From Micromonospora sp. HM5-17 (GTDB lineage Bacteria; Actinomycetota; Actinomycetes; Mycobacteriales; Micromonosporaceae): DNA of 64,000 bases. The notes under the pieces are model-generated. The model ran no database searches and had not been told where the DNA came from. It saw only the letters and a list, made by a program, of their open reading frames with translations. The stretch is taken from NCBI RefSeq assembly GCF_003762835.1, contig NZ_RJWA01000008.1, forward strand, positions 62,001 through 126,000, in the 5' to 3' direction. The position numbers were made by a program, and so were the translations under genes. Shown in pieces: positions 19,077 to 32,934 of the stretch (position 1 is its first letter; each line of letters begins with the position of its first letter).

Positions 19077-20000
19077 TCAGCCGTCCCCGAGCAGGCGCCG
19101 GACCTCGGCGGCGGCCGGGTGTCCGGGTGCCCGGTCGAGGAACCGGCGCAGGGTGTGGACCGAGGCCGCGGGGTCGCTGTCGCGCTGCGCGAGGCCGAGC
19201 ATGAGCAGGGCGTCGGGGGTGTCGGGCCGGGCGGCCAGGACTGTCTCGGCGAGCCGGGCCGCCTCGGCCGTCTGCCCGAGCCGGATCAGGATGAAGGCGA
19301 ACCGTAGGCGAATCTCGTCGGCCGGACGTCGCTCCAGCGCGGTCCGGTAAATCTCGGCGGCGGCCTCGTACCGGCCCTGCTCCTCCGCCGCCCGGGCCAG
19401 CGCGAGCAGGTCGAGCACCGGGTCCGCGGCGATGGCCGGACCCGGCCGCCGGGCTGGTTCCGGAGCGGTGGCCAGACGCGGGGCGGCCACGGCGACACCG
19501 CCGACCAGGGCCAGCACGGCGACGGCACCCGCGGTCCAGACCCCGGCGGCGGTGACCGGCGGCGGGGGCCGGCGGGTGGGTCGGGGCGGTGCCGGCCGTG
19601 CCCCGGGGGCCGCGCCGCGACGCCGGCGATGGGTACGCAACGCCGATCCGGCCCCGACCCCGAGCGCGAGCACCGGGACCAGCCAGAGCAGCAGCCCCCA
19701 GCCCTGGGCGGGGGGCGTGGCCAGCACCTCCGCACCGTACCGGCGGACCAGGTACGTCCGGACCTCCTCCGGGCTGTCGCCGGCGCGGAGCCGGGCGGCG
19801 ATGACCTCGCGGATGGCGGCGGCGATCGGCGACCGGGAGTCCGCCACCGACTCGCCCTGGCAGGCGGGGCAGCGCAGCTCGGAGCTGAGCCGACGCGCCG
19901 GGTCGTCGTCCGCCACCCGCACCGACCGGTACGTCCCGAGCACGGCGCCGAGCAGCAGGACCAGCAGGACGGCCGCGCCGACTGCCCGCCGTGGCCTCAC
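19077..20000 (-). CDS. ccmH: CcmH-CcmI fusion: heme-lyase thioredox subunit with C-terminal TPR domain
   Basis: 307 residues from GTG 20000, whose start overlaps the ccmG stop (GTGA). An N-terminal helix is followed by the CcmH signature LRCPACQGES (redox cysteines about 46/49) and the three-helix CcmH fold. Two membrane helices then flank a basic Pro-rich loop, and the last 110 residues contain TPR-like helical repeats (ARAAEEQGRYEAAAEIYRTA) as in CcmI/CycH. In System I these parts reduce the apocytochrome CxxCH disulfide and hold the apoprotein for CcmF. Many Proteobacteria have separate ccmH and ccmI, while fusions are known. Last gene of the six-gene ccm operon. Confidence 0.88.
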   Translation of the reverse strand: MRPRRAVGAAVLLVLLLGAVLGTYRSVRVADDDPARRLSSELRCPACQGESVADSRSPIAAAIREVIAARLRAGDSPEEVRTYLVRRYGAEVLATPPAQGWGLLLWLVPVLALGVGAGSALRTHRRRRGAAPGARPAPPRPTRRPPPPVTAAGVWTAGAVAVLALVGGVAVAAPRLATAPEPARRPGPAIAADPVLDLLALARAAEEQGRYEAAAEIYRTALERRPADEIRLRFAFILIRLGQTAEAARLAETVLAARPDTPDALLMLGLAQRDSDPAASVHTLRRFLDRAPGHPAAAEVRRLLGDG

Positions 20001-20566
20001 GGGGCGCCCAGCAGCCGGGTCAGCCGCCGGTCGAGCCAACCGGCGGTCACCGGGCCGGACGTCCGGTCCGCGATCCGGCCCTGGGCGTCCACCAGGAACG
20101 TCTCTGGCACCCCGAATGCCCCCCAGCTCACGGCGGTGGCTCCGGTCGGGTCCGGCACCACGGTCAGCTCCACCGCCCCCGTCTCGGCGAGTAGTGCCCG
20201 TATCGCCGCCTCGCCGTCCCGGACGGCGAGCCCGAGCACCTGGAGATCCCGCGACGCCCAGCGGCGCTGCGCCGCGACGAGCAGTGGTAGTTCGTCCCGA
20301 CACGGCCCACACCAGGACGCGAACAGGTTGACCAGCACGACCCGGCCGCGGAACGCGGCGAGGTCGACCGGCGCGCCGGTGAGGCTCCGGCCGGCCAGCG
20401 GTGGTGCGGGCGCGCCCGGTGCGGTCACCGGTGACCCGGTGGAGCGGGATCCGGTGCCGGCCACGCCGACGGCCACCGTCGCGCCGAGGGCGCCGATCGC
20501 GAGCAGCGCCAGCGACGGTACCCACCGGAGCCGGCGGCCCGGCCACCCGGCCGGCGGCCGGGTCAT
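19997..20566 (-). CDS. ccmG: CcmG/DsbE-like thiol:disulfide oxidoreductase (TlpA family)
   Basis: 189 residues. The N-terminal membrane anchor (about 15-37) is followed by a thioredoxin-like domain with WCGPC in FASWCGPCRDEL and the CcmG/ResA cis-Pro signature GVPETFLVD. In cytochrome c maturation it reduces CcmH or the apocytochrome cysteines outside the membrane. ATG 20566 overlaps the ccmF stop (ATGA), and its own stop overlaps the ccmH start, so translation is coupled. Confidence 0.92.
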   Translation of the reverse strand: MTRPPAGWPGRRLRWVPSLALLAIGALGATVAVGVAGTGSRSTGSPVTAPGAPAPPLAGRSLTGAPVDLAAFRGRVVLVNLFASWCGPCRDELPLLVAAQRRWASRDLQVLGLAVRDGEAAIRALLAETGAVELTVVPDPTGATAVSWGAFGVPETFLVDAQGRIADRTSGPVTAGWLDRRLTRLLGAP

Positions 20567-31210: not shown

Positions 31211-32934
31211 TCACCCGGTGGCTGCTCCGCCGACTGGCCCGGAGCGTCGACGACCGGTTGCGGACCGCGCCGGTGGTGCGCCGGGTGCTCGCCGCGGTCT
31301 TCCCCGACCACTGGTCGTTCATGCTGGGGGAGATCGCGCTCTACTCGTTCGTCGTGCTGGTGCTGACCGGGGTCTTCCTCACCCTCTTCTTCGCGCCGAG
31401 CACCGCCGACACCGTCTACACCGGCGCGTACGCGCCGCTGGACGGCGCCCGCACCTCCGCCGCGTACGCCTCGACCGTCCGGCTCAGCTTCGACATCCGG
31501 GCCGGGCTGCTGATGCGGCAGAGCCACCACTGGGCGGCGCTGCTCTTCGTTGGCGCGATCGTGCTCCACCTGCTCCGGATCTTCTTCACCGGCGCGTTTC
31601 GCAGGCCCCGGGAGATGAACTGGCTCATCGGGGTCACCATGCTCGCCCTCGCCCTGTTCAACGGCTTCACCGGATACTCCATCCCCGACGACCTGCTCTC
31701 CGGGACCGGCCTGCGGATCCTCTACTCGGTGACCCAGTCGATCCCGCTGGTGGGCGAGTGGTTGGTCTTCCTCGCCGCCGGGGGCGAGTTTCCGACCGAC
31801 GAGATGGTGCCCCGGATGTTCGTCAGCCACGTCCTGCTCGTCCCAGCCGTGCTGGCCGCGCTGATCGCGATCCACCTGGGGATCCTGATCCGGCAGAAGC
31901 ACAGCCAGTTCCCCGGCCCGGGGCGTACCGAGAACAACGTCGTCGGCTCCTTGTTCTGGCCCAGCTACACGGTACGGACGCTGGCGCTGTTCGCCTGGGT
32001 CCTGGCGGTGACGTTCGCCCTCGGCGGACTGGCGCAGATCAACCCGGTGTGGATCTACGGGCCGTTCGACCCGGCCCAGGCGACCTCGCCCGCCCAACCC
32101 GACTGGTACGTGGCCTGGGGCGACGGGGCGCTGCGGCTCTTTCCCGCCGTCGAGTTCCGGATCTTCGGTCAGCTCGTGCCGTCGCCGTTCCTTCCCGGGG
32201 TCGTCTTCGGTGGCCTGACCTTCGCCGGCCTCTACCTCTGGCCGTTCCTGGACCGGCGGCACGGGCGTGACCGCCTCGCCCACCAGCTGCTCGACCCACC
32301 CCGCGCCCATCCGGCCCGGCTCGGGTTCGGCGTCGCCGTCCTCGCCCTCTTCGCCGTCCTGCTCGCCGCGGCGGCCGACGACGTCATCGCGACGATCCTG
32401 CGGGTCCCGGTCCTGGACGTGCTTGCGATCCTCCGGGTCCTCGCGCTCGCCCTGCCGGTCCCGGCCGGCGTCACCGCCTACCTCGTCGCCCGCGCGCTGC
32501 GGGCCAACGGTGGTCGGGGAGTCGGCGACCTGACCCGGGCGGACGTCCGGTCGGCGGGCCGATTGGTGTGCGTCGGGTCGCCCGTCGGCGGGGCGCCGAC
32601 CGGTATCGGAACGCCGGAGGGGACGGCGGAGCCCGTCGACGCGGACCGGGTCGAGCTGTGGCGGGACCGGACCGGGCTCTGGCGATGGCGGTACCGCGGT
32701 GCTTCGGTCTCGCTCACCGCGAACCGGGCCTACCCGTCCCGAGCCGAGGCGGAGCGGGCGGCCAGGACGGCGTACGGGGACCTTTCGGTGTGGGAGGTGG
32801 CACCGCCCGGCGGTCGGCCAGGCGCCCCGGCCGCGGTGGCGGCCCGGGCCGGGCGCGCGGCCGGCCGGGTCGGCGGATACCTCGCCCTGGCGGCGGTCGC
32901 GTTCTGGCGCGCCCGCCGGGACCGCCGGCGCTGA
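31207..32934 (+). CDS. qcrB: Cytochrome b subunit (QcrB-like) with C-terminal YegP/DUF1508-like module
   Basis: 575 residues from GTG 31207. The heme b histidines show H-x13-H (SHHWA...VLH) and H-x14-H (VSHVL...IHLG) spacing, and the Qo motif is PDWY, both typical of menaquinol-oxidising bacteria. About eight membrane helices end near residue 430. After a linker, residues about 480-530 (VELWRDRTGLWRWRYRG ... YPSRAEAERAA) resemble one YegP/DUF1508 repeat. The chain then ends with a Pro/Ala/Arg-rich tail and a weak hydrophobic stretch. The extension is not part of standard QcrB, and its role is unknown. Last gene of the operon. Confidence 0.92.
   Translation: MITRWLLRRLARSVDDRLRTAPVVRRVLAAVFPDHWSFMLGEIALYSFVVLVLTGVFLTLFFAPSTADTVYTGAYAPLDGARTSAAYASTVRLSFDIRAGLLMRQSHHWAALLFVGAIVLHLLRIFFTGAFRRPREMNWLIGVTMLALALFNGFTGYSIPDDLLSGTGLRILYSVTQSIPLVGEWLVFLAAGGEFPTDEMVPRMFVSHVLLVPAVLAALIAIHLGILIRQKHSQFPGPGRTENNVVGSLFWPSYTVRTLALFAWVLAVTFALGGLAQINPVWIYGPFDPAQATSPAQPDWYVAWGDGALRLFPAVEFRIFGQLVPSPFLPGVVFGGLTFAGLYLWPFLDRRHGRDRLAHQLLDPPRAHPARLGFGVAVLALFAVLLAAAADDVIATILRVPVLDVLAILRVLALALPVPAGVTAYLVARALRANGGRGVGDLTRADVRSAGRLVCVGSPVGGAPTGIGTPEGTAEPVDADRVELWRDRTGLWRWRYRGASVSLTANRAYPSRAEAERAARTAYGDLSVWEVAPPGGRPGAPAAVAARAGRAAGRVGGYLALAAVAFWRARRDRRR

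Follow-up and report, generated by a model that had tools for sequence, protein, structure and literature searches.

A respiratory module of Micromonospora with a System I-like cytochrome c maturation set that appears to lack the CcmAB transporter

A compact block of respiratory genes lies at positions 19077-32934 of a 64,000-nucleotide stretch of the genome of Micromonospora sp. HM5-17 (the window, i.e., the whole stretch that was analysed). It consists of two divergent, back-to-back operons with a short AT-richer gap between them and holds 15 genes (6 + 9): ccmC-D-E-F-G-HI on the minus strand, and the genes of a caa3 oxidase and a bcc complex on the plus strand. Sixteen genes had been counted in a first-pass annotation, the coordinates and gene identities of which were borne out by family models (profile matches and structure matches). 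Because the identical gene set recurs in other genomes, the block is not a chance arrangement. The genes ccmA and ccmB, on the absence of which that annotation did not remark, are missing from it. The reading put forward here, to which a probability of roughly 0.6 is given, is that the block would be an accessory respiratory module with a dedicated, natural System I (Ccm) lacking its ATP-binding cassette (ABC) transporter.

The minus-strand operon begins with ccmC (23131..23898, start approximate), whose product carries the WWD motif and both heme-ligand histidines; it is over the cut-off of PF01578 and matches TIGR01191 with an E-value (E) of 2e-43, which is under the cut-off. It is followed by a candidate ccmD (22946..23134), an open reading frame (ORF) for a CcmD-like protein with a single transmembrane segment that shares 4 bases with the ccmC stop, and by ccmE (22542..22949), the heme chaperone with the HxxxY motif (RHDNEY), which is over the cut-off of PF03100 (E 7e-23). 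The heme lyase gene ccmF (20563..22545) reaches 367 bits with TIGR00353, under the curated cut-off, and its product matches the solved CcmF 6zmq at E 5e-92. The thioredoxin-like ccmG (19997..20566) contains WCGPC and matches TIGR00385 (DsbE) at E 4e-24, again under the curated cut-off. In ccmHI (19077..20000, start codon approximate), ccmH is fused to a CcmI-like TPR domain; the redox motif is LRCPACQ, and PF03918 (E 5e-31) as well as TPR models match. That is to say, several ccm genes stay under curated NCBIfam cut-offs, and ccmC, ccmE and ccmH are over those of Pfam. Moreover, the AlphaFold2 model of CcmC matches chain C of the solved E. coli CcmABCD (8ce1_C, E 4e-10; 7f02_C, E 6e-10). With these Pfam passes and the structure matches of CcmF and CcmC, the identity of the ccm genes is not in doubt. 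Neither ResB nor CcsA occurs among the module genes.

On the plus strand, coxB (24050..25072) encodes oxidase subunit II with the CuA ligands (CAEYCGLQHAHM) and a fused cytochrome c (CVACH), the combination by which a caa3-type oxidase is recognised; it is over the cut-off of TIGR02866 and matches PF00116 and PF00034. Subunit I is encoded by coxA (25083..27017; TIGR02891, 702.6 bits against a cut-off of 670.75) and subunit III by coxC (27091..27711; PF00510, 104.7 bits, over the cut-off). The next gene (27711..28109) encodes an unnamed three-helix membrane protein in which H31, C43 and C130 are invariant among 31 aligned sequences; no Pfam family is over its cut-off for this protein, and its AlphaFold2 model (predicted local distance difference test score, pLDDT, 89.5) has no match in the PDB at E 0.001. 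Then come ctaG (28097..29068) for the caa3 oxidase assembly factor, with 151.5 bits for PF09678 against a cut-off of 27.7 and TIGR02737 under its cut-off, and the gene of a small cytochrome c (29065..29451; PF00034, E 5e-8) with a lipobox-like N terminus and the motif CGGCH. The bcc complex is encoded by qcrC (29481..30347), a diheme cytochrome c with 226.6 bits for NF050122 (cut-off 200), qcrA (30344..31210), a Rieske protein over the cut-off of PF00355 and under that of NF050121 (217.5 bits against 275), and qcrB (31207..32934), cytochrome b with 562.7 bits for NF050120 (cut-off 500). All four CxxCH sites reported in the first pass could be read in the sequence: CVACH in CoxB, CGGCH in the small cytochrome, and CASCH and CAACH in QcrC. 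CoxA and CoxB pass general models and fail actinobacterial ones (NF050116 in the case of CoxA); QcrC and QcrB pass the actinobacterial bcc models, and QcrA, with its Rieske domain, does not. Electrons would be expected to run from the bcc complex over the membrane-anchored cytochrome c to the caa3-type oxidase, and the divergent ccm operon would mature the four heme-c sites of the module. No clear conserved motif that could be an operator shared by the divergent operons was seen in 27 loci.

Elsewhere in the genome there are two other CoxA genes (contigs C34 and C48) and one other QcrB (C45); the C45 locus also has relatives of qcrC, qcrA, coxC and coxB. Four Cytochrom_C_asm genes were found: two are the ccmC and ccmF genes of the window, and the other two, on contig C1, encode CcsA. 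With a further QcrB, two further CoxA genes and two System II loci in the same genome, the block is accessory and forms a second chain. The second, c-heme-rich chain supposed in the first pass is in this way supported, and the search for qcrCAB/ctaCDE and CcsA/ResB in the rest of the genome has returned a canonical set together with the two System II loci. In those two loci (L027 and L028, both on C1), ResB lies near CcsA with CcdA-like and thioredoxin-like neighbours, as judged by sequence, and the cytochrome c maturation sets of the genome number three in all. The window thus keeps a whole additional respiratory chain together with the genes for its assembly. Formate dehydrogenase (FDH)-like genes stand beside the module in five stretches (L024, L165, L176, L178 and L186), one of them from another order; the molybdopterin subunit of L165 passes the actinobacterial formate dehydrogenase model, the iron-sulfur subunit of L178 matches FDH-beta under the cut-off, and the others were recognised by similarity. 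Such neighbours hint that a quinone-linked donor for the module chain may be encoded there.

The distribution of the module was surveyed across the family by two marker genes, CcmE and module CoxB. CcmE occurs in 52 of 354 family genomes, in 10 of the 44 genera, and in 10 of 394 sampled genomes of the class. An independent search with module CoxB (E 1e-60) gave 53 of 354, that is, the same 52 and G229, in which the match starts at contig base 16. CcmE and CoxB stand on one contig in 50 of the 52, and a contig break lies between them in G151 and G152. As regards presence or absence as a unit, the marker genes therefore co-occur, with one contig-end case. According to the first pass, the locus would be an ordinary core locus of actinobacterial respiration if it held the only bc and oxidase genes of the genome and were universal in relatives; other sets exist in the genome, and carriers are 52-53 of 354. 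The genes do belong to known families, but an ordinary core locus is hardly tenable given this distribution, with 3 carriers among 7 genomes of the genus itself and a separate canonical set in the same genome. Gene order was read in 8 + 40 fetched stretches. The two halves are divergent in most module stretches, co-directional in G215, G301 and G321 (loci L171-L173), where coxC and the three-helix gene were not recognised, and convergent in G121 and G695; in G014 a distance of about 25 kb separates them.

The most particular feature is the missing transporter, its absence being judged by profile search of assemblies. With the CcmB model, no convincing match was obtained in any of the 52 family carriers. 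The same model applied to 12 carriers from other families was positive in 10, at 57-122 bits and beside ccmC or ccmE in all 10; the two without CcmB, G573 and G695 from other orders, are precisely those of the 12 that bear the caa3-bcc module (the G695 stretch spans ccmC to the three-helix gene and does not reach coxA). The possibility that CcmAB is merely missing from one draft assembly was rejected, for the result holds over 52 genomes, 49 of which have a completeness of 90% or more and a contamination of no more than 5%. The System I set announced in the first pass thus stands as far as the family identities of ccmC-D-E-F-G-HI are concerned; it is incomplete in CcmA and CcmB, and because CcmAB is a defining feature, it must be called a System I-like variant and not a complete System I. 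No report of a CcmAB-less System I was recognised in the open-licence literature searched, most subscription journals being outside the search.

Most module loci leave no space for a ccmD gene. In 25 of 33, ccmE homology starts at most 15 bases after the ccmC stop or, in many cases, overlaps this stop; elsewhere in the operon the genes are for the most part packed just as closely. In CcmB-bearing loci the corresponding gap is 95-321 bases in 56 of 62, the genes being apart or reordered in the other six. A CcmD-like ORF is retained in the three Plantactinospora loci, short candidates of 30-32 residues are present in L165 and L171-L173, and L024 has a gap of 80 bases and no candidate. A raw tally of 31 CcmD-like ORFs was not used, since 24 of them are the start of CcmE. 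A fusion of CcmC with CcmD was also considered and rejected: the CcmC tails of the module, read by eye, have no second helix after helix 6.

The history of the loss can be approached through CcmF. In a tree of 52 rows, the 21 module proteins without CcmB stand on one side of a branch (100/100, and 100% of 200 bootstrap trees), adjoined by the CcmB-bearing actinobacterial L020 and L026; ccmB was seen in 30 of the 31 non-module rows, the other being L105, whose ccmF is at contig base 100. L165, L169, L122 and L170 were left out of the CcmF tree as short, and the duplicates L077, L079, L081, L082 and L094 were dropped. A tree of 114 rows agrees, with 35 module rows together (Shimodaira-Hasegawa-like support 99). 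Since the CcmB-less CcmF proteins form one clade next to CcmB-bearing ones, the simplest account that suggests itself is that ccmAB disappeared a single time, in the ancestor of this clade. Outside this clade, 16 rows of the larger tree have no ccmB in the stretches examined (only the stretches being covered); these are possibly further losses, or merely split clusters. As a side observation, the best-ORF CcmF match of L165 (G695) covers 337 of 647 positions, and this gene is possibly split or frameshifted.

The remaining Ccm proteins retain their active sites. All 33 CcmC proteins of the module that remain of 36 after L179, L181 and L202 were left out for short matches have the residues H61, W120, W124, W126, D127 and H191 (numbered as in the aligned protein of the window). 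HxxxY of CcmE is present in 33 of 33 module loci, and CxxC of both CcmH and CcmG in 32 of 33, the remaining locus being cut by a contig end; this set of 33 and that for CcmC differ by a few loci, and as some are close relatives (L078 is nearly identical to L194), neither amounts to 33 independent lineages. H172, H260, H301 and H490 of CcmF are invariant in 8 of 8 aligned sequences. Pairwise ratios of nonsynonymous to synonymous substitution (dN/dS) between the window and two congeners are 0.25-0.41 for ccmC, ccmE and ccmF, 0.50-0.52 for ccmG and 0.39-0.41 for ccmH. The ccm genes are kept and are not decaying, with ccmC, ccmE and ccmF under purifying selection. These results bear on the alternative that CcmCDE is a relic and that CcmFGH takes heme directly from the membrane, as is reported of an engineered CcmFH. 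San Francisco et al. reportedly described in 2014, to go by the title, an engineered maturation independent of CcmABCDE, which speaks for this alternative, and the losses of A, B and D could be steps of decay; however, ccmC and ccmE are under purifying selection with the examined heme-handling residues kept, and both are found in every stretch with a whole ccm cluster of the module. The relic alternative is therefore thought very unlikely.

The preferred reading, an accessory module with a transporter-less System I, would imply the following pathway. CcmAB would have been lost once in the ancestor of the module clade, and CcmD too in most loci examined. CcmC alone would move or pick up heme, hold it at the WWD site and attach it to the histidine of CcmE; holo-CcmE would then leave CcmC without ATP, probably through loose binding or capture by CcmF, and CcmFGH(I) would attach the heme to the apocytochromes. 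In E. coli, CcmCDE is described as carrying holo-CcmE when CcmAB is absent (PMC12077264), and if CcmCD has a channel of its own, the loading of CcmE by CcmC should persist. Release would either need no ATP or depend on an unlinked factor; a loosely held CcmC-CcmE complex from which CcmF captures the chaperone is favoured because CcmD, which is linked to release in E. coli, has often disappeared as well. We infer that the pathway works, that it serves the module cytochromes, and that release proceeds in some such manner. That CcmC by itself translocates heme and loads CcmE, with ATP-free release of holo-CcmE where CcmAB and mostly CcmD are gone, is given slightly less than an even chance. In E. 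coli, CcmC is described as contacting CcmB through helices 4 and 5. Of 33 module sequences, 22 have a loop of at least 17 residues between these helices, ten a loop of 12 and one a loop of 7, as compared with 11-12 in 62 of 62 CcmB-bearing sequences; the difference is suggestive only.

Several points weigh on the other side. First of all, holo-CcmE release in E. coli is described as requiring ATP hydrolysis by CcmA, heme on CcmE is not passed on once the ATPase activity of CcmA is lost, and CcmD is reported to be necessary for release (PMC3601427); these CcmA and CcmD requirements put the inferred pathway at odds with the model organism, short of some compensating factor. In CcmC, differences are spread over the protein, and no relaxation of conservation was seen to be concentrated in helices 4 and 5, which touch CcmB. 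Three of the 52 carriers have CcmB-model matches of 26-27 bits (Pfam cut-off 24.9) on contigs other than that of ccmE, far below true CcmB. CcmA-model matches over the cut-off occur in G214 and G695, far from the ccm genes. Finally, the two System II sets of the genome could mature the module cytochromes.

The last point corresponds to an alternative in which CcsBA of System II exports the heme or matures the module cytochromes, the ccm genes only assisting, for example, in thiol reduction or as a heme reserve. The two ResB-CcsA loci with their CcdA-like and thioredoxin-like neighbours are in its favour, as is the second caa3 oxidase of G356 (L175), for which no ccm gene lies within the 20 kb examined. 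But a sufficient System II predicts loss of ccm in some carriers, and the only apparent case is a contig end; ccmE accompanies module CoxB in 52 of 53 carriers, and the active sites of CcmC, CcmE and CcmF are conserved. It is thus regarded as quite unlikely. The other alternative is that an ABC exporter which is neither linked nor orthologous has taken the place of CcmAB, in which case heme movement and holo-CcmE release would still be driven by ATP. ABC ATPases matching the CcmA model are present in all 64 genomes searched, over its cut-off in 8, and many ABC ATPases score near that cut-off; the CcmA model is not specific enough to give a decision for whole genomes. CcmB-model matches with E of 10 or better, mostly weak, occur in 17 of the 52 carriers (the three just over the cut-off and 14 weaker). 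No transporter is consistently linked, however. With a home-made gene finder, which may miss some genes, ABC ATPase genes were seen in only 3 of 38 module stretches (the window, L195, and L173 with two), and they are mutually dissimilar, that of L195 being 30-35% identical to those of the other two stretches; in the window the gene lies about 10 kb from the block, beside a peptide-type permease set. In addition, the loss of ccmD in 25 of 33 loci would be hard to explain if a CcmAB-like release step had persisted. An unlinked exporter is accordingly judged unlikely.

With respect to origin, the parts of the module have mixed affinities: the bcc complex is actinobacterial, the caa3 oxidase is closer to proteobacterial cassettes than to CtaC/CtaD of the same genome, and the ccm genes stand beside other actinobacterial ccm genes. 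Hence the module looks assembled from parts. In trees of CoxA and CoxB, caa3 proteins from proteobacterial plasmids stand nearer to the module than do the other copies of the same genome, which lie far outside; the branches are long and unsure. The co-directional loci group with G573 in the CcmF tree (100/97) and with the second caa3 of G356 in the CoxA tree (99), a conflict which indicates that parts have been exchanged. That second caa3 oxidase (L175) belongs to a genome with a full module, and neither ccm nor qcr was seen in the surrounding 20 kb. The earlier suggestion that the cassette could have been acquired as one unit is upheld in that the marker genes are present or absent together; acquisition in a single event seems less likely, the affinities of the parts being different. 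As to a plasmid origin, CoxB relatives on plasmids reach 46% among the 15 matches listed, and all 300 records are below 60%.

On the right flank, homology ends at most 4 bases after qcrB in both block-carrying congeners, and the glycerophosphodiesterase gene that follows qcrB in the window is on other contigs in both. On the left, a holin-like gene is shared with both congeners, a major facilitator superfamily (MFS) gene with G006, and thiamine pyrophosphate (TPP) enzyme, flavin adenine dinucleotide (FAD)-linked oxidase and enolase-like genes with G003; a glycoside hydrolase 15 gene between the holin and MFS genes is found, among the three genus loci, in the window only. The idea that the flanks are unrelated even within the genus was therefore rejected, the left neighbourhood being partly shared with both congeners. 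It would seem that the genus has inherited the block at a single place, with rearrangement at its edges, and that it is not a recent insertion. A Pfam scan of 13 flanking genes revealed neither an integrase nor a transposase; there is no tRNA in the window, and no empty insertion site for the block was found. As for the neighbours themselves, a pyruvate oxidase-like TPP enzyme and an FAD-linked oxidase with an iron-sulfur domain lie upstream of the block (8841-13234 of the window), and relatives of the former occur near the module in 5 other stretches and of the latter in 4, from several genera. The FAD-linked oxidase (10604-13710) is read as two overlapping ORFs in different frames (876 + 159 residues), the relative in L023 being one ORF of about 1010 residues, so the split in the window is a frameshift or a sequencing error. 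A Holin-X superfamily III gene (18576-19028) lies beside ccmHI, and 6 other stretches likewise have a relative of it close to the module.

The route by which heme is moved across the membrane in System I is a matter of dispute, with CcmB and CcmC as the candidates, and so is the reason why holo-CcmE release needs ATP. One 2025 paper names CcmB as the heme translocase (PMC11868835); another assigns CcmCD a heme channel of its own and limits CcmAB to holo-CcmE release (PMC12077264); and according to a proposal in a structure paper of 2023, heme would be flopped where CcmB and CcmC meet, CcmE being bound by CcmB alone (PMC10457321). For CcmC and CcmD, a survey of 2025 is described as covering 44 organisms, phyla for which both were not obtainable being dropped. 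A lineage without CcmAB, often without CcmD, that keeps CcmC, E, F, G and H under selection would be a ready-made test system and would define the minimal System I core. If CcmC does translocate heme by itself and release of holo-CcmE needs no ATP, CcmB would not be the universal heme translocase of System I, ATP-driven release would not be universal, and the core would be CcmC-E-F-G-H.

Compared with the actinobacterial bcc-aa3 chain (QcrCAB-CtaCDE) with System II, the module shares a diheme QcrC, and its QcrC and QcrB pass the actinobacterial models, whereas its subunit II has a cytochrome c of its own, its oxidase is nearer to proteobacterial caa3, and System I-like genes are attached. With proteobacterial caa3-CtaG cassettes, such as that on the Rhizobium plasmid pT136c, it has in common that cytochrome c, coxB, coxA, coxC and an assembly gene stand together, CoxB being about 44% identical; in contrast, the 14 features listed for that stretch of the plasmid, the gene table of which is incomplete, include neither bcc nor ccm genes. 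In common with System I proper are CcmC with WWD and two histidines, CcmE with HxxxY, CcmF, CcmG, CcmH-TPR and, in the window, a CcmD-like ORF; the differences are that the block has no ccmA or ccmB, the genome no convincing CcmB, and 25 of 33 loci no room for CcmD. Naturally pared-down forms of System I are also represented by System I* and by archaeal Ccm variants. The System I* variant was reportedly, as its title indicates, the subject of a paper by Goddard et al. in 2010. Like these, the module set is reduced; unlike them, it keeps CcmG and CcmH and lacks CcmAB. System I* is described as having neither CcmG nor CcmH and no CcmE histidine (PMC3601427), for archaea, CcmB, C, E and F are described, joined by CcmH in a single species (PMC4429474), and the table of the 2011 review, under known variants of CcmA or CcmB, gives none (PMC3601427).

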